In this document: positions 1,034 to 21,758 of the stretch, piece after piece
Numbering within the stretch: position 1 is the stretch's first letter
How the letters are laid out: every line of letters starts with the position of its first letter
DNA from: a virus
DNA: 21,903 nt
Direction: 5' to 3' (one strand)
IMG/VR virus record: IMGVR_UViG_3300030104_006977
Location: 11,368 to 33,270 of that record
The notes under the pieces: model-generated
What the model saw: the letters and a program-made list of their open reading frames with translations, nothing else
Database searches by the model: none
Told to the model about the DNA's origin: nothing
Translations under genes and position numbers: made by a program

Positions 1034-1618
1034 ATGAAGAAGATATTAGATAAGTGGGAAAAATGGCGTGAAAGCATTAATGAATCAAGCCTTTCTCGTG
1101 TTTATGGCCACATCATGGAACACGATAGTGCGATTCTTTCTGCTTTTAGAAATGAATATACTAATAAAGAGAACTACGAAAGAAGTAGAAAATTAAAAGC
1201 TGATCTTCTTTCAAAAGGATATGGAGTTACTAAGGTAAAGGGCTCATTCATTGAAGGTTTTGATACCGATGAAGCGGTAGAAGTCAGTGAACAAAGTATG
1301 TTTGTTGTAAACTTAAAAGACGATAACGATTTTAATTCCAACATTATCAACCATGGTAGCGAATGGGAACAAGATTCAGTGTTGATTATCCCCAAAGGTG
1401 GAAAAGATGCATATCTTTATGGAACCAGTGAGACCAACGATTTCCCGCCATTCCAAGAAAAGCAATTGGTTGGTAGTTTGAAGATGGGAGAAGAGGATGA
1501 GTTTATGACTAGAGTCAGCGGCAGACCTTTTATTTTTAAAGAAGAACTAGAAACTTACGACAACCTTTCTAAGAATTCAAAATGGGCACTTAAGAAGATG
1601 ATTGAGGAGAAAAAATGA
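1034..1618 (+). CDS. Uncharacterised protein with W8 leader, DUF3293-like
   Basis: 194 aa, ATG 13 nt after the ClpP-like gene with GGAG upstream. The N-terminus MKKILDKWEKWRESINE has Trp at position 8, like five other proteins in the window, and a hydrophobic-x-Glu at residues 15-17 followed by Ser-Ser. After it, residues 35-95 have the pattern of the DUF3293 family: SAFRNEYTNKENYERSRKLK, then LLSKGYGVTKVKGSF, then SEQSMFVVN. A second part (about 105-140) contains SEWEQDSVLIIPKGG and reads as a beta-strand pair. No catalytic motif is evident. Function unknown; I infer that residues 1-17 are a leader and the rest is the cargo. Its last bases overlap the kinase gene by 4 nt (ATGA), so the two are translationally coupled. 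Confidence 0.75.
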   Translation: MKKILDKWEKWRESINESSLSRVYGHIMEHDSAILSAFRNEYTNKENYERSRKLKADLLSKGYGVTKVKGSFIEGFDTDEAVEVSEQSMFVVNLKDDNDFNSNIINHGSEWEQDSVLIIPKGGKDAYLYGTSETNDFPPFQEKQLVGSLKMGEEDEFMTRVSGRPFIFKEELETYDNLSKNSKWALKKMIEEKK

Positions 1619-4433: not shown

Positions 4434-5168
4434 TTAAAACCCCAGTTCTTCTTCACCTGTCTCCGCAGCCTCGATCTCAGCCTCTTCAGCGCCTGTGTCT
4501 GGCTCTGGAACTGTGGTTTGAAGCTCGTCCTCAAACTTGTTGAAATAGAGTTTGATGTTGGTAAGGAGATATTCGTAGAAAACATCTTGGTCTTCTTTGT
4601 TGGAGAGCATGTCGTAAGAATCTACAATGTTCTGCTCAATCTTCTTGAAAGTGGTATAAGCCATATTACGACCGGTCTTATCCTCACCTTCAATGCCGAA
4701 CTCTTCTACTTCTGCGTCTTCGACCTCTTCCTCTTCTGGCTCGATGTCAATAAACTTTTCACCTTTGTCATCGTCACCTACACGGACGGAGATTTCATCT
4801 TCCTGTTCCTCAAGAGGAGTATCGTCATCAATTCTCTGAGTGGCTAATGTATTTTCCGTAGCATTTAGGATATGAGCGCTAAAAGACTGTCTCTGCTCCT
4901 CACTTGTTGTGAGTTGCTTGTAATCATCTTCTAGGACGGGAACAATTCTTTTAAGTAAGTCTTCAAGAACATTAATTCCTGTGTTCTCGTGTGGAACTTT
5001 GTCGCCAACAGCGGCTTTTTCTTGAAGTAACATCTCTCTGATAATTCCTCTCAGTTGTGTTTCTTCATCAAGCTCTTGTTGTTTCTTCTCTGTAACAAAT
5101 TTAATCGCTTCACGAATGTGCTCACGAAGTGCTAATTCCTCTAAAAATTGTTTTCTATCAATCTGCAT
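4434..5168 (-). CDS. Acidic helical phage protein, unknown function
   Basis: 244 aa. Residues 1-50 are helical and carry hydrophobic/charged repeats (QFLEELALREHIREAIKF and LRGIIREMLLQE) that resemble the leader helices of other proteins in this window. Residues 110-160 are extremely acidic (DEISVRVGDDDKGEKF, EPEEEEVEDAEVEEF), residues 165-215 are helical with aromatic positions, and the last 25 residues are again Glu-rich. Such composition is seen in scaffold-like, chaperone-like or DNA-mimic phage proteins. The start overlaps the upstream stop by one base (TAATG); GGGAG lies 8 nt before it. A candidate late promoter sits 23 nt upstream, inside the preceding gene. No family was recognised with confidence. 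Confidence 0.8.
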   Translation of the reverse strand: MQIDRKQFLEELALREHIREAIKFVTEKKQQELDEETQLRGIIREMLLQEKAAVGDKVPHENTGINVLEDLLKRIVPVLEDDYKQLTTSEEQRQSFSAHILNATENTLATQRIDDDTPLEEQEDEISVRVGDDDKGEKFIDIEPEEEEVEDAEVEEFGIEGEDKTGRNMAYTTFKKIEQNIVDSYDMLSNKEDQDVFYEYLLTNIKLYFNKFEDELQTTVPEPDTGAEEAEIEAAETGEEELGF

Positions 5169-7381
5169 TATTTTGCTCCCATCTTCTTTAATAAGTAGTC
5201 TAAAATCTTCTCAACGAGTTCGTCTTCTCTAATTAGGCCGTTGAAATTGTTTTTCTTTTTGGTTCCAGCGTAGCCAGCGCCCATTCCTCCACCCATTGAT
5301 GAAGTCTCTTCCAAGCCATCCTCTTCAAGGGCCGAGAAGCCCACAGGACCGCTCTTAGCTCTTTTACTTGGTCTTTTCTTTGTGTAAGGGCTTCCGGGCT
5401 TCTGAGGGCCAGATCCGAGCATTTTATGCCAGTCTTTCATGTAGCTCTTGATTCGCTCGCTGTCCTTCTGATAATCTCGCTCGTCTAGCACCTCTTCTAC
5501 TAGCCCACGAATATAGGAAAGAAGCTCGTCTCTTTTTGATTTTTTTTTATTTTCGGGCAGTGCGCCTGATAAGCCGAGAACTTTAAGTATTTCTTCTTTC
5601 TTTCCCATCGCATCGTCAGGGACGAAGGATAGGACCTTTTCTATGTCGCCTTCTTTCGCTGCGACTCGGATATCTGTAGCGCTTAAGTTTTCGGTTGGGT
5701 CAAATGCGTATTGAAGAGGGTTAGGAACTCTAACTCCTTCACCAGCATACTTTTGCATGTTGTTAGCAAAGCGGGACTGGTCTCCTCCCTTAGTGCTAGT
5801 TCCCAAGATAACACAATCCCCTGGCTCGGCCTGCTCACCTACAAAGTCGAGGGAGGCACGAACTGGAGAGCGCATTGGGGAAAGCTGAACTTCAACATTT
5901 GGAAGGCCAGCGGTGTATAGGTTCCAAAGAGCCAAGGACTGCTCATTATCCACGTCTGATTGTGTTTCTGGATTGAAACTCTTTCTCTCGCTTGCTTTGA
6001 TTGGTGAGATCATAACAATAACTTTTCCACCATTTCCGACGATGGAACTATAATGTTTCACCATGTCGTAGTGGCCTCTGTGAGGTGGCTTGAAAGCACC
6101 TGGTACAATTGCTACCAATCGCTCACAACGTTCTAATGTTCCACCCTCCTCCTGTTCGGCAAGAGATAAAGGTGGAACACTTCCACGACCATACCTAAAC
6201 AGACCCAGGATTTGGTTGATAGGGGCAAAGTTACCAGTGAACTTATAAGTCTGCCCGTCATAATCAAACACAAAACCTTCCGCAGCCGTAGAGATGTTTT
6301 CAACACCCTTCAGCTTACGCATCTGTTGATTCAGTATTGCTATAGCTTCTTCACTTCCTGAAGCTTCAATAGCATCAATTGCTTTTGAAACTTCTTGTCT
6401 TATTCTACTCACCTCCTTGGGGTTGTCTAAAATGAAAGCACTCTGAAGACCCTTTAGCATTTCAACTGAAAAGTCGTGGACGATATCTTCGATTGGAGCA
6501 ATGGCATCTTTTAAAAGTTTTTTTGAACTCTTGACGATGGCTCTTACGATTTCTTTCTTCTCTTTGTCGAGACCTTTTACAACGTGATTGAAGGTAACTC
6601 CCTTAACTCCAAGCATTCTTTGGAGAAGTAGCTTTTTACTGTCCTCGGGCAAATCTACGTTGGCTTCAATAAATGGTACGATGCGGGCAACCAGGTAATC
6701 GGCAATAGTGTGATTATCGCTGATCCCTGCTGCTTGTGTCGCTTGTTCAATTCTTGAGATGGTCTTGGTAAGTTCTGTATCATCTCCAAGTCCTTCTAAA
6801 TTCCTAATAGCATTCTTTTGAATGTTGTATTCATCATCTTCGATGGACTGTTGCATTTTTTCAAGCGCAGCATCCAAAGTCGCAGCGTTCTTGGAAATGT
6901 CAACATCTTTGATAGTACCTGTCTCTCTATCGAACTCTGCGTGACCTACATCATGGATGTTCAAGGTCTTAGTGTCGTAGTTAATTACGTTTGCTGTCCG
7001 AGGGTCTTGGATTTCGGCATTATAATAAATGTTAGCGTCAGGGCCAAATATTTCTACTTGAACCTCTTGGGGGAGGGAGCGAACGGCTTTTTCAAACGCT
7101 TGAAACGATTCATTGAATGTTTTTTCTAAGGCTCCTCGTCCAGCAAATTTCTGGGCTAGACCAGCGGGTGATAATCCGCCTGTCTTAATGTTGCCCTTGT
7201 TTCGTGCAGCACGAGCTTCTCCGTCTTTTACAGAATAAGAAATGAACAGATTCTGACCGTCAGTCTTCTCTGTCCCTTCCAATTCACCTGCGGAGGCTGC
7301 TGTAAAGATGTCTTTAATCTTTGTAAAAGTGAGACCAGGGTTCTCATAAATGTGGGACATATGTCCTGCTACGCCACCCAT
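5168..7381 (-). CDS. Fusion of ligase-like covalent nucleotidyltransferase and HxGH nucleotidyltransferase
   Basis: 737 aa. The N-terminal half has the motifs of the DNA/RNA ligase superfamily: motif I EKTDGQN with candidate nucleophile Lys39, an AARNKGNI segment (residues 58-65) near the usual Arg, motif III VEIFG (109-113), then a long helical insertion (about 155-360), and motif IV AEGFVF (367-372) with TYKFTGN holding a motif V-like Lys380. The second half begins at 423 with VAIVPGAFKPPHRGH, where HRGH (434-437) is the HxGH site, and continues to LSATDIR (566-572), the equivalent of the ISSTxIR motif; this is the NMNAT/cytidylyltransferase fold. The last 130 residues are charged and end in the helix ELVEKILDYLLKKM. 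SD AGGAG is 8 nt before the ATG. Similar proteins are known in large marine myoviruses; the substrate is not known. RNA repair, NAD metabolism or protein modification are possible. Confidence 0.85.
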   Translation of the reverse strand: MGGVAGHMSHIYENPGLTFTKIKDIFTAASAGELEGTEKTDGQNLFISYSVKDGEARAARNKGNIKTGGLSPAGLAQKFAGRGALEKTFNESFQAFEKAVRSLPQEVQVEIFGPDANIYYNAEIQDPRTANVINYDTKTLNIHDVGHAEFDRETGTIKDVDISKNAATLDAALEKMQQSIEDDEYNIQKNAIRNLEGLGDDTELTKTISRIEQATQAAGISDNHTIADYLVARIVPFIEANVDLPEDSKKLLLQRMLGVKGVTFNHVVKGLDKEKKEIVRAIVKSSKKLLKDAIAPIEDIVHDFSVEMLKGLQSAFILDNPKEVSRIRQEVSKAIDAIEASGSEEAIAILNQQMRKLKGVENISTAAEGFVFDYDGQTYKFTGNFAPINQILGLFRYGRGSVPPLSLAEQEEGGTLERCERLVAIVPGAFKPPHRGHYDMVKHYSSIVGNGGKVIVMISPIKASERKSFNPETQSDVDNEQSLALWNLYTAGLPNVEVQLSPMRSPVRASLDFVGEQAEPGDCVILGTSTKGGDQSRFANNMQKYAGEGVRVPNPLQYAFDPTENLSATDIRVAAKEGDIEKVLSFVPDDAMGKKEEILKVLGLSGALPENKKKSKRDELLSYIRGLVEEVLDERDYQKDSERIKSYMKDWHKMLGSGPQKPGSPYTKKRPSKRAKSGPVGFSALEEDGLEETSSMGGGMGAGYAGTKKKNNFNGLIREDELVEKILDYLLKKMGAK
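5191..5199 (-). promoter_or_regulatory. Candidate late-promoter element ACTACTTAT
   Basis: On the minus strand ACTACTTATTAAAG lies 22 nt before the ATG of the acidic 244-aa gene, with GGGAG in between. The same core recurs at 8109-8117, 18325-18333 and 21784-21792 with 21-25 nt spacing to a start. It also encodes part of the upstream protein's last residues, so coincidence is possible for this copy. Confidence 0.35.
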
Positions 7382-8578: not shown

Positions 8579-9580
8579 CTAGATTTCGTTGGGGTTATCC
8601 GAGAAGAAAACTTCCTTCATCGTTGGAATCGTGAAGGCTTTCTTACCAATCCATTTTGTCATCTCTGACTCGCCGCTAAACTGTGTTTGCTCTCCATCCT
8701 CGTAAGCATTCCAATGGTTCACTTCACGTAGGACATCCATCTTATTAAACACCAAATGGGTTACACCATTAATGTTTGCGGCTTGCTCAAGCAAGTTCCA
8801 GTTCATCCAGTTACACTGTCGAGGTCGGCCTGTTGTTGCTCCATACTCTCCACCAACCTCACGGATGCGATCAAAGACCTCTCCATCACCGTGAAAGCTC
8901 TTGGCTCCGACGTAGGTCTCATAGATCTTTGCCACTCCCCAGACATTCCTGATAGCCTGTGGAGGAACACCGTTTAGAAGGGCCGAGGCGCTCGTACAAT
9001 GGCTGGAAGTGACGTAAGGGTAGTCACCCCAATCAATGTCCAGTCCGAAGCCTTGTGCGCCCTCAAAAAGGATTTTTACTTCATCTTCTGATTTATGAAG
9101 CTCTTGGTAGAGATCGATAGTATACTTAGAAAGTTCAGGGACTTCACTTGCCCTTACTCCTACTCTCGCATACTTGTCTCGATACGCAGGACCGTTCCCA
9201 CGCTTGGTGGTTCCAATCCTTTGGTCTTTGCCGTCCTCTTCAAGATGGTCAGGAGTAATGACGTGAGTGTTGTTGGCAATAAAAACCAAGTTCTCAATGT
9301 CCTCTCCTAGACCTTCCTTGAGTTCGTTCAACTCCTTGAAGAACTGTTCTACGTTTACAACGCAGCCAGGACCAATAACAGACTTAACGCCGAAGAATAC
9401 ACCTGCGGGGATGTGGTGGGTCACGAACTTCCTTCCTTCGTGGAAGATAGTGTGGCCAGCATTACAACCTCCGTTGTATCTTACTACGTGTGTGTAGTTT
9501 CCTGTTTTACAAAGATGATGGGTAATTTTACCCTTTCCACAATCGCCATACTGAAGATCTACAACTACGTCTGCTATCAA
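8579..9580 (-). CDS. purA: Adenylosuccinate synthetase-family enzyme (PurA/PurZ), short form
   Basis: 333 aa from the TTG at 9580, chosen because CAGGAG lies 6 nt before it and because the upstream in-frame ATG at 9607 overlaps a TATAAT box. The enzyme joins aspartate to a purine monophosphate using GTP. Motifs: YGDCGKGK (Asp13 in this numbering aligns with the catalytic Asp of PurA), NGGCNAGHTI with the catalytic His, IGTTKRGNGPAYRDKYARVGVR, FEGAQGFGLDIDWGDYPYVTSS, GATTGRPR, and FNKMD, the guanine-specificity motif. Bacterial PurA is about 430 aa; this length matches archaeal PurA and phage PurZ. Phage PurZ makes the 2-aminoadenine precursor from dGMP; as I recall its catalytic Asp is replaced, whereas here it is kept, favouring the PurA reaction or a PurZ0-like enzyme. 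No other Z-genome gene is in the window. Confidence 0.9.
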   Translation of the reverse strand: MIADVVVDLQYGDCGKGKITHHLCKTGNYTHVVRYNGGCNAGHTIFHEGRKFVTHHIPAGVFFGVKSVIGPGCVVNVEQFFKELNELKEGLGEDIENLVFIANNTHVITPDHLEEDGKDQRIGTTKRGNGPAYRDKYARVGVRASEVPELSKYTIDLYQELHKSEDEVKILFEGAQGFGLDIDWGDYPYVTSSHCTSASALLNGVPPQAIRNVWGVAKIYETYVGAKSFHGDGEVFDRIREVGGEYGATTGRPRQCNWMNWNLLEQAANINGVTHLVFNKMDVLREVNHWNAYEDGEQTQFSGESEMTKWIGKKAFTIPTMKEVFFSDNPNEI

Positions 9581-9605
9581 TTTGTTCTCCTGAGTGAATA
9601 ATAGC

Positions 9606-9634
9606 ATTATAACACTCTAGGCAAGAAAAGTAAA
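9606..9634 (-). promoter_or_regulatory. Sigma70-like promoter for the PurA-family gene
   Basis: On the minus strand TTTACT (9629-9634), a 17-nt spacer and a perfect TATAAT (9606-9611). Transcription would start near 9599, leaving a short leader with the CAGGAG site before the TTG start at 9580. It lies in the 67-nt gap after tRNA-Ala. This suggests expression by unmodified host RNA polymerase. Confidence 0.6.
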
Positions 9635-12151: not shown

Positions 12152-12943
12152 TTATGACTCCTCTTGAAGTGAAAGCATTGCGTCGTAAGCTAAATCTTGT
12201 AAATTGGATAATTTTTCCAAATATCCGTTACGACGGAGCACTTTGAAGGCTAAATTTTCAATTGAGTACTCTCCACCAGTCTCCAAACCGGCTTTTCTGA
12301 AATTTCTGAGCTTCTCTTTAGTCTTTACGACAAAATCATGCGCTTCCTTGAATTTTTCATTCAAATAGAGCACTTCAATGTTGTCTACGATGTCCATAAT
12401 GGCCGCTGCTTTGATTCTGATGTTGTCATAATCAATTTCTGGGTCTTCTTTCTCTGGTTTTTCAAGCCACTTATCATCTAAGACAGAATAAACACCTGTA
12501 GATGCGTGCGGCTCTTTGACATCTTGAAAATAAAGCTCAACTTCATGGTCTTTAACCATTATTTTATGTTTTCTGTTCCAATTTACCCTCTTTGCGGTCA
12601 AAAGATCGCTGATTAACTCGGGATTGTCGCCAATTTGGTCGTAATCAACCAAAATGTGGAGGTCGATGTCGGAAAACTCTGACCAATTGAAGTTAGCGAT
12701 GGAACCGGTGAGGGTAATATCTAAAATTTGCATGTTTGGGAAGCCTAAACTATCAATAAAATCGTTTGCAATCTCTAAGAGTCTCTCTCGAACGTCCGGA
12801 TCGAGCCTGTCGTCGGACCAAAAATCAGGTTGGAGACTATCTTTCACTTGAAAACTAGACAAGTCTATGGTTTGAGGGTCCACATCTTCTTCCATGTCCC
12901 CTTCCTTAACAAAGTTTCTCCAGTTTTCAACAATAATTCTCAC
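12152..12943 (-). CDS. Pol-beta-superfamily nucleotidyltransferase with W8 leader
   Basis: 263 aa, GTG start with AGGGG 6 nt upstream. Residues 1-14 are the shared leader (IIVENWRNFVKE, Trp8, Glu14). The nucleotidyltransferase core is LTGSIANFNWSEFSDIDLHILVD, with the GS pair at 80-81 and the metal-binding D92-x-D94, followed by HEVELYFQD (133-141), which supplies the third acidic position. The C-terminal 110 residues are helical (IKAAAIMDIVDNIEVLYL), as in other minimal or substrate-binding nucleotidyltransferase helical domains. Such enzymes transfer NMPs to tRNA, small molecules or proteins; the target is not evident here. As a capsid-loaded enzyme it could modify host components right after infection, which is inference from the leader only. 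Confidence 0.85.
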   Translation of the reverse strand: MRIIVENWRNFVKEGDMEEDVDPQTIDLSSFQVKDSLQPDFWSDDRLDPDVRERLLEIANDFIDSLGFPNMQILDITLTGSIANFNWSEFSDIDLHILVDYDQIGDNPELISDLLTAKRVNWNRKHKIMVKDHEVELYFQDVKEPHASTGVYSVLDDKWLEKPEKEDPEIDYDNIRIKAAAIMDIVDNIEVLYLNEKFKEAHDFVVKTKEKLRNFRKAGLETGGEYSIENLAFKVLRRNGYLEKLSNLQDLAYDAMLSLQEES

Positions 12944-12961
12944 AAGTAACCCCTTTTTTAT

Positions 12962-13138
12962 TTAATTAGGTAGTGAAACTCTTCTAATGCCGCTTAAAGG
13001 TTTACTTTTATTCATTTTGTTCGTCTTTTTTCGGCTTCTTCGGTCAACGATGACCTTCACGTTAGGATCTTTTTCAAAAATCTCTTGAATAATTTTTTTT
13101 AGCTCTGGGCTGTGTTGTGATACGATGAAATAGTTCAT
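12962..13138 (-). CDS. Small VDRR-motif protein
   Basis: 58 aa, between the HAD phosphatase (5 nt) and the nucleotidyltransferase (18 nt). AGGAG lies 10 nt before the ATG, inside the end of the upstream gene. The sequence YFIVSQHSPELKK, IFEKDPNVKVIVDRR and a basic tail RSRKKTNKMNKSK follows the pattern hpeLyexlxxxFxxdpxVxVilDRR seen in many small or terminal domains of deltaproteobacteria and other host bacteria. No enzymatic motif. Fits the codon frame cleanly and has a consistent ribosome site; confidence is limited by length. Confidence 0.65.
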   Translation of the reverse strand: MNYFIVSQHSPELKKIIQEIFEKDPNVKVIVDRRSRKKTNKMNKSKPLSGIRRVSLPN

Positions 13139-13143
13139 TCAAT

Positions 13144-13755
13144 TTAGACTCCTCTTATAAGTTGTTGTAATTTTTTGATAGTATCTTCGGTTGATGTGTG
13201 ATGGATTGCAATCCCACCAGCATTTTCCCAAGGTATATAGTATTTTTCCATGTCATCTATCAAAATATTTGGAAGATTTGTCTCTTTGTTGTATGCATAC
13301 TTGAACTTATCGTGTGTCAAGAACACTTTTTCTGGTTGTGGGCTCAAATGCTCATCAACCCAGACCAATTTGCCCTCGGCTGAGTCTTTATCCCATGGTG
13401 CTGAGAGGACATACGGGTCGAATGGTGCTAAAAAAGACCATAATTGTTGAGCATCTTCCTTCATAGGGAGAGAAACCCAGAATTCTCTGTTACGGTTGAG
13501 CACTTTATAGATGTGCTTCAGACCTTTTGCTAAAACTGGGTCATTTTTGAAGACATTAAAGTCTTTCCCAGAGGCCATGATCTTATATACGGCCTTTTGT
13601 TTGTCTGCATTGGTGGTATCTTGGTGTGTTGCCTGGAGTAATCCCTTAGCAAAATCCACTAAAACTCCATCCATATCGCAGTAGATTTGGTATGGAAATT
13701 CCATTTTTTCGTTTTCCTTTATAAAGTTTCTCCAACTTTTCATTACATCAGTCAT
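13144..13755 (-). CDS. HAD-superfamily phosphatase, 5'(3')-deoxyribonucleotidase-like, with W8 leader
   Basis: 203 aa. AAGGAG lies 6 nt before the ATG. Residues 1-14 are the leader (Trp8, FIKE ending at Glu14). HAD motif I is YCDMDGVLVDF (nucleophile Asp at about 27 and Asp at 29), motif II is YVLSAP, motif III is the Lys in THDKFKYA, and motif IV is LIDDMEKYYIPWENAGGIAIHH. The order and the WENAGG segment match phage and bacterial 5'-nucleotidases that dephosphorylate dNMPs. It overlaps the upstream coiled-coil gene by 8 nt. A dNMP phosphatase beside a dNMP-forming kinase gene in the same phage is odd unless the two act at different times or on different bases; packaging in the head would separate them. 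Confidence 0.87.
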   Translation of the reverse strand: MTDVMKSWRNFIKENEKMEFPYQIYCDMDGVLVDFAKGLLQATHQDTTNADKQKAVYKIMASGKDFNVFKNDPVLAKGLKHIYKVLNRNREFWVSLPMKEDAQQLWSFLAPFDPYVLSAPWDKDSAEGKLVWVDEHLSPQPEKVFLTHDKFKYAYNKETNLPNILIDDMEKYYIPWENAGGIAIHHTSTEDTIKKLQQLIRGV

Positions 13756-13981
13756 TTTTGTCTCCTTTACCGACTTTTCCTTTCAATAAGGCTCGGTAAT
13801 ACGCCGTTTCTTGGGCATTTATGATTGTTTCTTGGAGTTGTTCCGAGAATCTACGGATATCTGAACTTCTTATTTCGTCTAAAAGGTCCCAAAGAGTATC
13901 ACATTCGTCTCTTAGTTTGACATTTTTCTCTTTAAGTTCAGCAACTTCTTGCTTTAGTTCTTCAATCGTCTTCTCTTTCAT
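13748..13981 (-). CDS. Small coiled-coil protein
   Basis: 77 aa from the ATG at 13981, chosen because AGGAG lies 7 nt upstream; the longer frame starting at 14047 has no such site and would run through the 56-codon gene. Residues 3-30 form a clear heptad coiled coil (IEELKQEVAELKEKNVKL), followed by a second helix with SEQLQETIINAQETAYYRALLKG. Basic at the end. It overlaps the gene before it by 20 nt and the gene after by 8 nt. Function unknown. Confidence 0.75.
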   Translation of the reverse strand: MKEKTIEELKQEVAELKEKNVKLRDECDTLWDLLDEIRSSDIRRFSEQLQETIINAQETAYYRALLKGKVGKGDKND

Positions 13982-14132
13982 CTTTTTGCTCCTCATCGGT
14001 GGCTTCTTTAAGTAAATCAATGACTTTCCAGGTATGTTCAGTACCAAGTTCGTCAGTAAGTTCTCTCAAATTGCGCCATGCTTCTTGTAAAGTGAGCTTT
14101 TTTGCTTGCCATTCTACACAAATGATGCACAT
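13962..14132 (-). CDS. Small MCIIC phage protein
   Basis: 56 aa, fitted between the HExxH peptidase and the coiled-coil gene. Its ATG overlaps the peptidase stop by one base (TAATG) and GAGAGGG is directly upstream. The sequence begins MCIICVEWQAKKLTLQEAWRN and goes on with LRELTDELGTEHTWKVIDLL. A protein of this type, with the CxxC at the very N-terminus and the KLTxxEAWRN helix, recurs in large phages; no function is known to me. Two cysteines could bind metal together with residues from a partner. Confidence 0.75.
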   Translation of the reverse strand: MCIICVEWQAKKLTLQEAWRNLRELTDELGTEHTWKVIDLLKEATDEEQKDEREDD

Positions 14133-14872
14133 TACCCTCTCTCCCCTGTATCTGAAAGTGGATATCGTGAATCAACGTAGTAGGCCCACCAATCTCTCAT
14201 ACGGAGAATTAGCGGCTTTAGTTGTTCTTCTTTGAAACCATAGCTCATACCTGTATAATACACGCCTGTGAGGTAATCGTCAAGTACTTCGTGAAAAGGT
14301 TCCTTAAGTTCTTTTGATTTTAGGTATAATCCAACAGCGTGAGCTTTGGTTTCTGATTCGCTGGTGTAGTAATCGAACGCACCCTTGAGGGATTGCCAGA
14401 TTTCTCCCTCTGGCATACGCTCTTGAACCCAGTCTAGGACTTCCGTCGATTGAATGCTGTGCTCCAACTCGTGACGGATTGCTTCTTTAATTTCTGGGAT
14501 GAGGTCAGAAAGAATATTAAACTCATACTTTCTTGGAAGTTTAATCATAATGTATAAATCAGAAGTCTTTCTCTCATCATCATCGCCATTCATTGTGTAT
14601 TCGTATTTCCCAGCAACGGCTGTTGAAGGATCCCAGTCATCAGGGTTGACTGAATAAAGCGTTACATACATATCTCGAACGTTTCTCATTTTATCCAGCA
14701 GCACGGTGTCGAGTTTAAAAGCGACTTTGCCTCTGGAATTGAAAAATTCACGAAGATCTTCGTCCTTGATTGCGTCAACAACCTCTCTGGAAAGAAGGCG
14801 AGCCTTCGTATCCATCTTTCTACCATTGCTCTCGCTTAGGTGTTTTCTCCAATTTTCAATTATGAGTTTCAT
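14132..14872 (-). CDS. HExxH metallopeptidase-like protein with W8 leader
   Basis: 246 aa. Leader residues 1-14 (LIIENWRKHLSE, Trp8, Glu14, then Ser-Asn). The zinc motif is AIRHELEHSIQ with H134-E135-x-x-H138, followed about 35 residues later by SESETKAHAVGLYLKSK, where a Glu (172 or 174) is well placed as third ligand, as in phage peptidases with an ExxAxxxGLY helix. The middle part (60-115) is beta-rich. It is not related by obvious sequence to the other HExxH protein at 8543. Start overlaps the upstream gene by 4 nt (ATGA). The target is unknown; if it is carried in the head it could process host proteins or head-internal proteins. Confidence 0.82.
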   Translation of the reverse strand: MKLIIENWRKHLSESNGRKMDTKARLLSREVVDAIKDEDLREFFNSRGKVAFKLDTVLLDKMRNVRDMYVTLYSVNPDDWDPSTAVAGKYEYTMNGDDDERKTSDLYIMIKLPRKYEFNILSDLIPEIKEAIRHELEHSIQSTEVLDWVQERMPEGEIWQSLKGAFDYYTSESETKAHAVGLYLKSKELKEPFHEVLDDYLTGVYYTGMSYGFKEEQLKPLILRMRDWWAYYVDSRYPLSDTGERG

Positions 14873-15240
14873 ATTAATTCTCGTGCCTTTTCTTCTGCAT
14901 ACTCAAACTCCTCATCGCTGTATGTGCCAAATATCTTTTCTACTTCTTCTGGAGATGTTTCACGATAGGTGTTTCTTTCACCACTTATATTGTCAAGCAC
15001 GTTTTCCAATGGTATCCTGCCACGGCAGTCAATCGCTTCTTTTGTTTGAGAATCATAAGCAAAAACATGATGCATGTCTCCTCGTTCATCAACGATGCCA
15101 TACATGGGAAAATCAGAAATTCCACTAATGGCTTGTGCCAGCAACGAGCAGTCTCGCCTCATAAAATTAATATATTCGGAGGGATGGTGCTCCTCTTCCT
15201 CTTTCAAATACCCTCGCCAATTTTCAAGTAGTTGTTTCAT
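14869..15240 (-). CDS. Uncharacterised protein with W8 leader and His/Asp core
   Basis: 123 aa. Leader residues 1-14 (QLLENWRGYLKE, Trp8, Glu14, then three more Glu). The body reads DCSLLAQAISGI, MYGIVDERGDMHHVFAYD and EAIDCRGRIPL, a spacing of Cys/Leu-rich helix, a 'hHvF' strand and an 'iDcrG' turn that resembles several small bacterial and phage proteins with a papain- or transglutaminase-like layout (Cys in the first helix, His in the strand, Asp after it). That assignment is weak. The C-terminal part is an acidic helix (SPEEVEKIFG, DEEFEYAEEKARELI). Overlaps both neighbours by 4 nt. Confidence 0.75.
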   Translation of the reverse strand: MKQLLENWRGYLKEEEEHHPSEYINFMRRDCSLLAQAISGISDFPMYGIVDERGDMHHVFAYDSQTKEAIDCRGRIPLENVLDNISGERNTYRETSPEEVEKIFGTYSDEEFEYAEEKARELI

Positions 15241-15644
15241 TTTGTAATGCTGCTCCCTATTCTACGAAATCTTTTATCCAAGTCTCTCAGGGCACAATCC
15301 TGAATTCCAAGAGCACAAGAAATCTCTTTTGTATTGAACCCGACGATGATTGTCTCTCCGATCACGACGATGGGGACAACGTTGAGCTTCTCTACATCAA
15401 AGTTTACAGTCTTGGCGAAAGCAAATAAACTCTCTCGCTCTTCTTTAATCTCGACGTTCTTCTCGGTGTATTTCACCCCGTTTCTCTCAAGGTATTGTTT
15501 TGCATAAACGCAATAGCGACACCAAGTCGTAGTATACACCGTCACAGCCATCTGTTGTTTGGCTTCAGGGGGTTCTTCTACCTTGTTTGGTTTACATCCG
15601 AGAACACATAAGATAAAAATAATAAAATAAATAAGTTTCTTCAT
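15237..15644 (-). CDS. Glutaredoxin-like lipoprotein
   Basis: 135 aa. Residues 1-17 are a lipoprotein signal peptide (MKK, hydrophobic core, VLGC with Cys17), followed by a Pro/Glu-rich spacer and a glutaredoxin/NrdH-type fold: VTVYTTTWCRYC with the redox pair C42/C45, YLERNGVKYTEKNVE, and the cis-proline loop NVVPIVVIG (Pro91) followed by VGF. Two further cysteines (about 110 and 117) lie in the last part. So this is a thiol-disulphide protein anchored outside the cytoplasm, most likely in the periplasm, rather than a cytoplasmic electron donor for ribonucleotide reductase as phage glutaredoxins usually are. Overlaps the Nudix gene by one base and the following gene by 4 nt. Confidence 0.85.
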   Translation of the reverse strand: MKKLIYFIIFILCVLGCKPNKVEEPPEAKQQMAVTVYTTTWCRYCVYAKQYLERNGVKYTEKNVEIKEERESLFAFAKTVNFDVEKLNVVPIVVIGETIIVGFNTKEISCALGIQDCALRDLDKRFRRIGSSITK

Positions 15645-16069
15645 TAGCGTAGTGCCTTTTCAATTGCTGTTTTGGTTTCGTCTCTCATCTTATAATTAGG
15701 AAGGTCTTCCTCCGAAATCATTTTATAATCAACATGTTCGCTACTCAGGACGAGAGGTTGGTCAGTTGGATACTCTCCTCTATAGTAAGATCTGGTTTCA
15801 ACTGAAAAGAACAAAGGAGAGAAGGTGTCTATTTCAAAACCAGTCTCTTCCCTTACTTCTCTTTTCAAACCTCTCTCTGGTGTGGAAACCTCTTTGTCTT
15901 TAAGGTGCCCACCAGGCAGGTCCCATTGAAGGTTGTCGCTTCTTTGCAACAACAGGAACTTTCCTTCTTCATCAACAAGAACTGCCTTAACAACATCTTT
16001 GATATCGTTCTCATTGTTCTCGTTTAAAAAGTCGCTCCATTTAATCATTGCTTCTAACATATCTTTCAT
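15644..16069 (-). CDS. Nudix hydrolase with leader
   Basis: 141 aa from 16069 (GGAG 10 nt upstream). If read from the second Met (16060) the leader MLEAMIKWSDFLNE has Trp8 and Glu14 exactly like four other proteins here, so the shorter start may be the real one. The Nudix box runs LPGGHLKDKE (Gly54, Glu60) to KREVREETGF (Arg70, Glu71, Glu74, Glu75); between Glu60 and Arg70 there are nine residues instead of the usual seven, a small loop insertion. LLLQRSDNLQWDLPGG is typical of MutT/NUDT-type hydrolases of nucleoside diphosphate-X compounds. The substrate is not predictable. Overlaps the thioesterase gene by 4 nt. Confidence 0.87.
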   Translation of the reverse strand: MKDMLEAMIKWSDFLNENNENDIKDVVKAVLVDEEGKFLLLQRSDNLQWDLPGGHLKDKEVSTPERGLKREVREETGFEIDTFSPLFFSVETRSYYRGEYPTDQPLVLSSEHVDYKMISEEDLPNYKMRDETKTAIEKALR

Positions 16070-20831: not shown

Positions 20832-21212
20832 TTAGGCTGGCGGGCCAACGAAGCCCTGCTCAACATGCTCAATGAGCTTAGTTAAAAGCAGGTTTAGCAC
20901 GTCAACAACAGCAGCCTCACTGAGACCCATTTCGGCCAATTCGTCACTAAGGCCGTTAAGGCTTTCTTCGATATCGGTTTGTGCTTGCTCAAGCATACCG
21001 TCAATGGCCAATTCTTGCTCGTTTAGTTCGTGATGAGCCTCATTTTTTTCTTCTTCGGCTTTTTCGGCAGCTTTTGCAGCAGTGGCTGCGGACCTGCGGG
21101 CGGCATCGGCACGGGCCATGTTGGCCATCATTGCGTCTTCGTCATTTTTTTCCTGAAGTTTGGCAACCTCTTCGGAAATAATTTGCTTAAGTTTTGTTTT
21201 TGTAATTTTCAT
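20832..21212 (-). CDS. Helical phage protein with MKITKxxLKxII leader
   Basis: 126 aa. The leader MKITKTKLKQIISEEVAKLQE is shared with the gene directly upstream and with the internal start at 8084. The rest is nearly all helix: an Ala/Glu/Lys-rich coiled-coil part (ARADAARRSAATAAKAAEKA, EEEKNEAHHELNEQELAI) and a C-terminal helix pair (LSEAAVVDVLNLLLTKLIEH). It begins at the base next to the upstream stop. Proteins with this opening recur in large marine phages, often several per genome; I infer a head-internal or scaffold-associated role, with possible cleavage after one of the Glu residues in the leader. Confidence 0.78.
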   Translation of the reverse strand: MKITKTKLKQIISEEVAKLQEKNDEDAMMANMARADAARRSAATAAKAAEKAEEEKNEAHHELNEQELAIDGMLEQAQTDIEESLNGLSDELAEMGLSEAAVVDVLNLLLTKLIEHVEQGFVGPPA

Positions 21213-21758
21213 TTATTTGTCCTCACCTTTGTTTTCGTCTAAGTCTTCCTCTTCTCCCTTGTCGAAGAAGTCTGTGACGTCTGTCCAAGCGTCGTATTCT
21301 TTTTCCTCTTCGGGAGTGATGTCGAATTCATGCATCCTGGCGACATATTTTACAACGTCTTTTACGGTGTCTGATGGGAGCGCTCTGATAACTGACTCTA
21401 AGGCGTTCTCGTGGCCCATGGCCTGGATCATGGCATCGACCATTTCCCACTCTTCGTTTGTTGCGCCTTCTTTCATAAGCTCTTCCTTGGTTGGGTATGT
21501 TAAGCTGGGACCACCACCCTTGGCCTTGGAGAATGTAACTGCGAGGCTTGCTTGTTTAGCACGCTTACCGCCCATCTTGGCAGCACGGTCTATGCAGGCT
21601 TGCGTGACGCCATCTTTACCACACCACTCGGAAAAGTCGCCTTCTGTACCTTTTTTTTCAATGTCCTTGGCGAGCTTTTGAAGGGGTTGCTCTGCCTCCT
21701 CAAATCTGGAAATTTCTTCTGCGATTATTTTTTTGAGTCGGTTTTTTGTGATCTTCAT
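21213..21758 (-). CDS. Phage protein with MKITKxxLKxII leader, unknown function
   Basis: 181 aa. Leader MKITKNRLKKIIAEEISRFEE, then a basic central part (CGKDGVTQACIDRAAKMGGK, RAKQASLAVTFSKAKGGG) and a helical acidic C-terminus (EEWEMVDAMIQAMGHENAL, DFFDKGEEEDLDENKGEDK). The two cysteines (WCGKDG, QACID) are close to each other. AAAGGA lies 8 nt before the ATG and a candidate promoter 25 nt upstream. No enzyme motif. It is the first gene after the promoter element at the right edge and is directly followed by its leader-sharing neighbour. Confidence 0.75.
   Translation of the reverse strand: MKITKNRLKKIIAEEISRFEEAEQPLQKLAKDIEKKGTEGDFSEWCGKDGVTQACIDRAAKMGGKRAKQASLAVTFSKAKGGGPSLTYPTKEELMKEGATNEEWEMVDAMIQAMGHENALESVIRALPSDTVKDVVKYVARMHEFDITPEEEKEYDAWTDVTDFFDKGEEEDLDENKGEDK

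Follow-up and report, generated by a model that had tools for sequence, protein, structure and literature searches.

The internal head proteins of phage T4 carry a short N-terminal capsid-targeting sequence (CTS), which in IPII and IPIII reads MKTYQEFIAE. T4 genetics established that targeting depends on residues 4 and 7 and processing on residues 8 and 10, that a length of ten residues is enough, that Asp at position 10 gives targeting without processing, and that the leader alone packages and delivers a foreign protein; the idea that T4-like phages use such sequences for various cargoes has already been voiced (PMC9026906). Here we describe a leader of this kind in a 21,903-nucleotide stretch of viral DNA (the window; bases 11368-33270 of the 33,270-base virus contig IMGVR_UViG_3300030104_006977). 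Proteins with unrelated bodies share there an N-terminus with Trp at position 8 and a hydrophobic-x-Glu end at position 14. Very probably this leader is a Trp-type CTS of T4-like, mostly marine phages, by which enzymes are loaded into the head, trimmed and injected. An earlier note on the window had drawn the parallel with T4 leaders ending in FIAE, and the IPII and IPIII starts and the role of residues 8 and 10 bear it out.

Trp leaders in the window

The Trp leader was found on five open reading frames (ORFs) of the minus strand, and a related leader on a plus-strand SAM lyase that the earlier note had overlooked:

12152..12943, minus strand: Pol-beta-type nucleotidyltransferase, phrog_36119 family; leader MRIIVENWRNFVKE
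12902..12943, minus strand: leader of the Pol-beta ORF, 14 residues, GTG start
13144..13755, minus strand: NT5C-like HAD phosphatase; leader MTDVMKSWRNFIKE
13714..13755, minus strand: leader of the HAD ORF, 14 residues
14132..14872, minus strand: HExxH (RHELEHS) putative metallopeptidase; leader MKLIIENWRKHLSE
14831..14872, minus strand: leader of the HExxH ORF, 14 residues
14869..15240, minus strand: 123-residue protein, no family; leader MKQLLENWRGYLKE
15199..15240, minus strand: leader of the 123-residue ORF, 14 residues
15644..16069, minus strand: Nudix hydrolase; leader MKDMLEAMIKWSDFLNE from the first Met, MLEAMIKWSDFLNE from the second Met
16019..16069, minus strand: leader of the Nudix ORF, 17 residues counted from the first Met
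1034..1618, plus strand: SAM lyase (PF23780); leader MKKILDKWEKWRESINE, followed directly by SSLSRV
1034..1084, plus strand: related leader of the SAM lyase, 17 residues, ending INE right before the body

In the first four of these ORFs (12152-12943, 13144-13755, 14132-14872 and 14869-15240) Trp8, hydrophobic residue 12 and Glu14 are exactly in place, as the earlier note had described. Its further claim that the Nudix protein fits when read from its second Met is exact as regards the motif; the better start is the first Met, which has the better spaced Shine-Dalgarno GGAG (cggagacatcactagATG). The Nudix protein therefore probably starts at the first Met with a 17-residue leader, the W-x2-F-L-x-E register being unchanged. 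A plausible Shine-Dalgarno sequence lies upstream of most leader ORFs in the window, and the HExxH ORF begins before its upstream neighbour has ended.

The bodies are indeed unrelated: the Pol-beta, HAD, HExxH, 123-residue, Nudix and SAM lyase proteins fall into different families or into none. The Pol-beta fold body gave weak Pfam matches and a strong match to phrog_36119, and the SAM lyase matched the PF23780 profile with 60 bits against a curated cut-off of 28. Family searches returned no match for the HExxH body or the 123-residue protein. For the latter a PDB fold search also gave nothing significant (best E 0.53; weak ubiquitin-protease and papain-like matches), and the protein is left unnamed. 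PDB sequence searches with the SAM lyase and Pol-beta proteins yielded nothing useful, and a PADLOC scan gave a single match, on the Nudix domain, and nothing else. In AlphaFold2 (AF2) models the leader has low confidence and the body higher confidence, with residues 2-14 as a low-confidence helix; the 123-residue protein was modelled with a good body and a low-confidence leader. Trp leaders are also present on the HAD homologues of the genomes handled here as G001 and G004 and on the Nudix homologues of G001, G003 and G005.

The leader is concentrated at protein starts and ends at a hydrophobic-x-Glu motif

On the contig, Trp8, hydrophobic12 and Glu14 counted from the start codon occur together in 5/53 genes and after none of 169 internal Met codons; over eight genomes the counts are 46 of 1590 genes versus 2 of 6902 internal Met. 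These controls rule out chance as the origin of the leader. When a score matrix built from the five window leaders only was run over every position of six other, related phage genomes (148-203 kb), about 45 more high-scoring N-termini were found, mostly with Glu 14 residues from the start, and few internal sites. The leader is thus spread more widely than the earlier note had recorded.

An open pattern (MKxhhENW, positions 9 onward unconstrained) was then scanned against IMG/VR. Among the matches listed there are at least 84 clusters of mutually unrelated bodies, on which the following counts rest. Arg9 is present in 54, an aromatic residue or His at position 11 in 75, Leu, Ile, Val or Met at position 12 in 73 and Glu14 in 61, with Glu displaced by one to three residues in several of the exceptions; a hydrophobic-x-Glu end lies within positions 12-17 in 71. 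Entropy rises from 1.8 bits at position 14 to 3.3 at 15 and to about 4 by 20, so that conservation stops after residues 14-15. An alignment of 48 whole leader proteins from the six genomes gave the consensus MKLLxENWRxFLxE, with an invariant Trp and no conservation beyond it.

Leader genes are clustered, about 4-10 per genome. Their bodies match Nudix, NT5C and other HAD proteins, Pol-beta or NTP-transferases, SAM lyase, DUF2441, and tRNA-ligase-phosphodiesterase-like and polynucleotide-kinase-like proteins, and one body of G022 matches protein kinases weakly; many match no known family. The earlier note had named bacterial homologues with the same leader as a point that would count against it. 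In 257 Gb of bacterial and archaeal genomes the ATG+leader DNA pattern, searched in a minor spacing variant (hydrophobic11-x-E13), matched just twice, each time at a Met codon within an unrelated cellular ORF.

Register shared with the T4 capsid-targeting sequence

When MKLLLENWRKFLNE is laid over MKTYQEFIAE, Glu on Glu, Trp8 falls on Tyr4, Phe11 on Phe7, Leu12 on Ile8 and Glu14 on Glu10; more generally, aromatic residue 11 corresponds to Phe7 and Leu/Ile12 to Ile8. The leader is thus short, shared and N-terminal, with aromatics at the targeting positions and an L/I-x-E end, and the relatives encode a gp21-type S77 protease and a gp23-type major capsid protein with scaffold in the same genome. 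In every feature that can be tested in sequence, it fits the T4 CTS family.

Two leaders end in Asp, at G002:82502-83131 (WRSFLTD) and G003:104177-104983 (WKSFIDD). Given the T4 precedent of Asp at position 10, these proteins would be packaged and not cut. The pro-region of the capsid protein contains a stretch (N/S/E)KWExTGLLEG (G001:134213, G002:173583, G005:82272, G022:90620) that resembles LLNKWKPLLEG in T4 gp23, and the core may present one surface that binds both the leader and the capsid propeptide.

Leader and body are separable

The SAM lyase shows the junction. In the window and in ten other phages compared with it, the body starts with SSLSR nearly always (otherwise SSxxR), after an N-terminus that ends in Glu:

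Window: ..SINE|SSLSR
G022: MKQLIENWNKFVINE|SSLSR
L263: MKVLLENWKSFTDTLTE|SSLSR
G004: MTNKIHDNWKKFLNE|MSSLSR, the body having its own Met
Microcystis phage: MQFKQYILGE|SSLSR
Marine virus AG-345-L05: MKTFKEFLEE|SSLSR
S-CREM2 and S-N03: ..LEE|SSLSR
Slicko01: ..LSE|SSLSR
CP220: ..FNE|SSLAR
Lak: ..INE|SSINR

Because one and the same body start follows unrelated Glu-ending leaders, leader and body are read as independent modules that meet where the cut is predicted.

A second arrangement was found in G005 (22410-24602; L127:2410-4602), where one fused ORF consists of MKPLFENWRKFLGE, an HExxH domain, KPIFENWRGFLEE as a complete leader without Met at the junction, and a Pol-beta domain. In the window two genes encode an HExxH protein and the Pol-beta protein, and both have a leader of their own. 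The gene of the 123-residue protein is 92% identical in DNA to its counterpart in G022 (159618-159989), over that gene only, the remainder having diverged, and 96% identical in G023 (about 58904-59298), again in an otherwise diverged contig. From these identities, gene and leader appear to travel together as a cassette, through recent single-gene exchange.

Prohead protease and head genes

The earlier note had made its reading depend on a T4-type prohead protease in the full genome. A PF03420 protease (S77, gp21-type) was not found in the 33-kb fragment; it is present in 13/13 leader contigs of at least 148 kb, including the 185.5-kb G022. The relatives share the gene order TerL, portal, three small genes, S77 protease, core protein, scaffold and gp23-type capsid, and the G005 capsid protein matched gp23-type capsids in 2500 phage records. 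Since the PhoH, glycosyltransferase and nuclease of the window are about 47-68% identical to their counterparts in the six genomes, the window phage is assigned on these identities to the same group.

Homologues in cyanophage virions

S-CREM2 is a more distant T4-like phage with a published virion proteome (PMC10665884). Mass spectrometry identified among its virion proteins ORF6 (SAM hydrolase) and ORF156 (PMC10665884), which are homologous to the window SAM lyase (2.5e-18) and Pol-beta protein (3e-38), respectively. The S-CREM2 homologues of the PhoH, HNH and glutaredoxin proteins of the contig were undetected in the virion. The cytidylyltransferase ORF154, which starts MKNFSSFLTE, was detected (PMC10665884). 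The earlier note had named virion proteomics as a check of its reading; in the more distant S-CREM2, whose leaders are of a Phe type, two window proteins have homologues among the virion proteins.

With a T4-type rule ([FYWL]xx[FYW][ILMFV]xE within the first 16 residues), 5/7 marked non-structural S-CREM2 proteins were virion-detected versus 23/188 unmarked ones (p=7e-4, an optimistic value because the rule was refined after a looser version had been seen; that first version gave p=0.016). For S-SCSM1, 50 kb of the genome could be compared with the virion proteome: 1/1 leader proteins was in the virion, too little for statistical power. The NMNAT of S-SCSM1, a virion protein, starts MKSFLQFLKE.

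S-CREM2 ORF12 (OR473000 7704-10313), a virion-detected nuclease with a Cas9/Csn1 annotation, has FASFMAE at about residues 19-25, like a T4-type leader shifted inward. The window encodes at 5168-7381 a protein with a cytidylyltransferase-superfamily domain, for which blastp gives no link to S-CREM2 ORF154.

A second leader type and other features

Two further small proteins of the window, also overlooked in the earlier note, carry a leader of another type:

20832..21212, minus strand: small protein, second leader type, MKITKTKLKQIISE
21213..21758, minus strand: small protein, second leader type, MKITKNRLKKIIAE

This leader reads MKITKxxLKxIIxEE, and its hydrophobic-x-Glu end also lies at position 14. 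It was found as well at G005:1-2087 and 172592-174349, G004:96008, G006:42243 and G001:117224, and in some relatives the proteins that carry it adjoin protease or terminase. It is probably another head-targeting leader.

In Flavobacterium phage immuto (NC_055915 102880-118931; L182), several proteins encoded close to terminase and protease share another N-terminal repeat, FDLKKFLVENKLTxNSxLLKE, which may be a capsid leader peculiar to this phage. At 8579-9607 (minus strand) the window encodes an adenylosuccinate-synthetase-like protein that stays under the NCBIfam cut-offs of PurA and PurZ alike; it could be relevant to modified adenine in phage DNA.

Proposed function and alternative explanations

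We infer that, during head assembly, Trp8 and aromatic residue 11 would bind the prohead core, so that the enzyme behind the leader becomes enclosed. Cleavage by the S77 protease after Glu14, at hydrophobic12-x-Glu14, would then leave the mature enzyme free in the head to enter the host with the DNA. The delivered kit of SAM lyase, Nudix, NT5C-like HAD, Pol-beta nucleotidyltransferase and HExxH protein, possibly with ADP-ribosyltransferase (ART)- and kinase-like proteins, would act before phage gene expression. The capsid-targeting reading of the earlier note is strengthened by these results: the protease, bacterial and proteome comparisons, each made at least in part, left it standing.

Several observations weigh against this proposal. 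T4-like contigs in general encode an S77 protease, and so does G034, whose pattern match is spurious; being so common, the protease is a necessary condition and not a discriminator. Among the 84 listed clusters, 13 have no hydrophobic-x-Glu by residue 17 (several resemble chance pattern matches). The Pol-beta homologues of some other phages have no such leader, and that of S-CREM2 no FxxFLxE leader. The virion data come from cyanophages with Phe-type leaders, co-purification was not excluded by the S-CREM2 authors (PMC10665884), and most S-SCSM1 virion proteins in the 50 kb compared are without a leader.

The leader proteins might instead be core or assembly components of the prohead, degraded or retained, and not enzymes for injection. 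Leader ORFs do adjoin S77 protease or scaffold genes in G001, G003, G004 and G006: in G001 the ORFs beside the protease carry MKLLLEHWNRYLQE and WRTFLNE, and the other leader type stands beside it in G004 (MQIKKSRLRQIIKEE) and G006 (MRISRAELDRLIEAE). Moreover, in T4 this L/I-x-E motif is also where core proteins are cleaved (PMC9026906). However, most leader genes are clustered far from the head genes, the identifiable bodies are soluble enzymes, and SAM lyase, kinase and cytidylyltransferase were reported in mature S-CREM2 virions (PMC10665884). We consider this explanation improbable.

It is more doubtful still that the leader is a capsid-independent tag for docking or localisation in the infected cell, directed to a phage compartment, a membrane or a partner enzyme. 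The AF2 models draw residues 2-14 as a helix, with low confidence, and a helix at this place with its conserved Trp could bind a partner. Such a tag leaves unexplained why conservation ends at hydrophobic-x-Glu, why the register matches the T4 CTS, why T4-type leaders occur at the same SAM lyase junction and why homologues are reported in virions.

We find it hardly credible that the common N-terminus is left over from translation initiation or recombination, as a 5' gene end duplicated for expression that does nothing in the protein: leader codons are near-identical within one genome (ATGAAACTCCTACTTGAAAATTGG repeats in G001), so that these 5' ends were probably copied or converted, but across genomes the DNA varies while Trp8, aromatic11, Leu/Ile12 and Glu14 are kept and positions 10 and 13 are freer, which rules out codon copying as the sole cause, and in the G005 fusion the leader is also internal, between two domains.

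Returning to a Trp-type CTS, we give about even chances to a broader proposal: that a large group of marine T4-like phages uses an interchangeable address code (ENWR, KITKxxLKxII, FxxFLxE), swapped at one junction, carried by mobile cassettes and placed within fusions that the prohead protease splits in the capsid. If true, this code would predict injected effectors from sequence alone. Phage proteins that are injected are difficult to identify, and the gene products acting before transcription are known for only a minority of phages; a regular leader offers a sequence test. The kit that it singles out would have a clear anti-defence logic: SAM lyase could immediately starve SAM-dependent restriction, and nucleotide signals or host proteins could be targets of the Nudix, nucleotidase, nucleotidyltransferase, kinase and possible ADP-ribosyltransferase bodies. 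Such a leader would also explain the recurrence of SAM hydrolase, kinase and NMNAT in cyanophage virions, which the authors of those reports could not separate from co-purification. The leader further supplies short new tags with which proteins could be packaged into phage heads.

Comparison with known systems

The closest system is the CTS of T4 IPI-III, processed by gp21. Both have a short N-terminal leader with aromatics at +0/+3, Ile/Leu at +4 and Glu at +6, a hydrophobic-x-Glu end, unrelated bodies behind a single leader, and an S77 protease and gp23-type capsid in the genome. The Trp leader differs in having Trp in place of Tyr, four extra N-terminal residues and an E-N-W-R core, and in its setting: about 4-10 clustered leader genes per genome, identifiable cargo that is largely enzymatic, and one internal leader within a fusion. 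T4 Alt, an injected ADP-ribosyltransferase with an N-terminal propeptide, is likewise an enzyme cargo, packaged and cut by gp21, and possible ARTs occur among the Trp-leader bodies, some of which resemble DUF2441 or have a YHxT-type motif; the Trp-leader system has a far wider enzyme range and a standardised leader motif.

The virions of cyanophages S-CREM2, S-SCSM1 and S-SZBM1 are reported to contain SAM hydrolase, APH/ChoK kinase and NMNAT/cytidylyltransferase, among them homologues of the window SAM lyase and Pol-beta proteins. Cyanophage N-termini such as MKDFDSFLEE, MKRFDAFLTE, MKNFSSFLTE and MKSFLQFLKE fit the T4 CTS; they are Phe-based and near T4, unlike the Trp leader. In their accessible parts, the virion reports do not connect these enzymes with any targeting sequence. 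The ejection proteins of phiKZ and SPN3US are also packaged and cut after Glu by a gp21-related protease, with propeptides often of more than 100 residues (SPN3US), an S/A-x-E motif (phiKZ) and no short leader on many unrelated proteins. We found no description of a Trp leader in marine phages in the literature, in which subscription papers were thinly covered, so that an earlier description is possible. The CTS itself is already known; its Trp variant and the scale on which this occurs in marine phages appear to be new, as do the enzyme kit, the internal leader and the mobile cassette.

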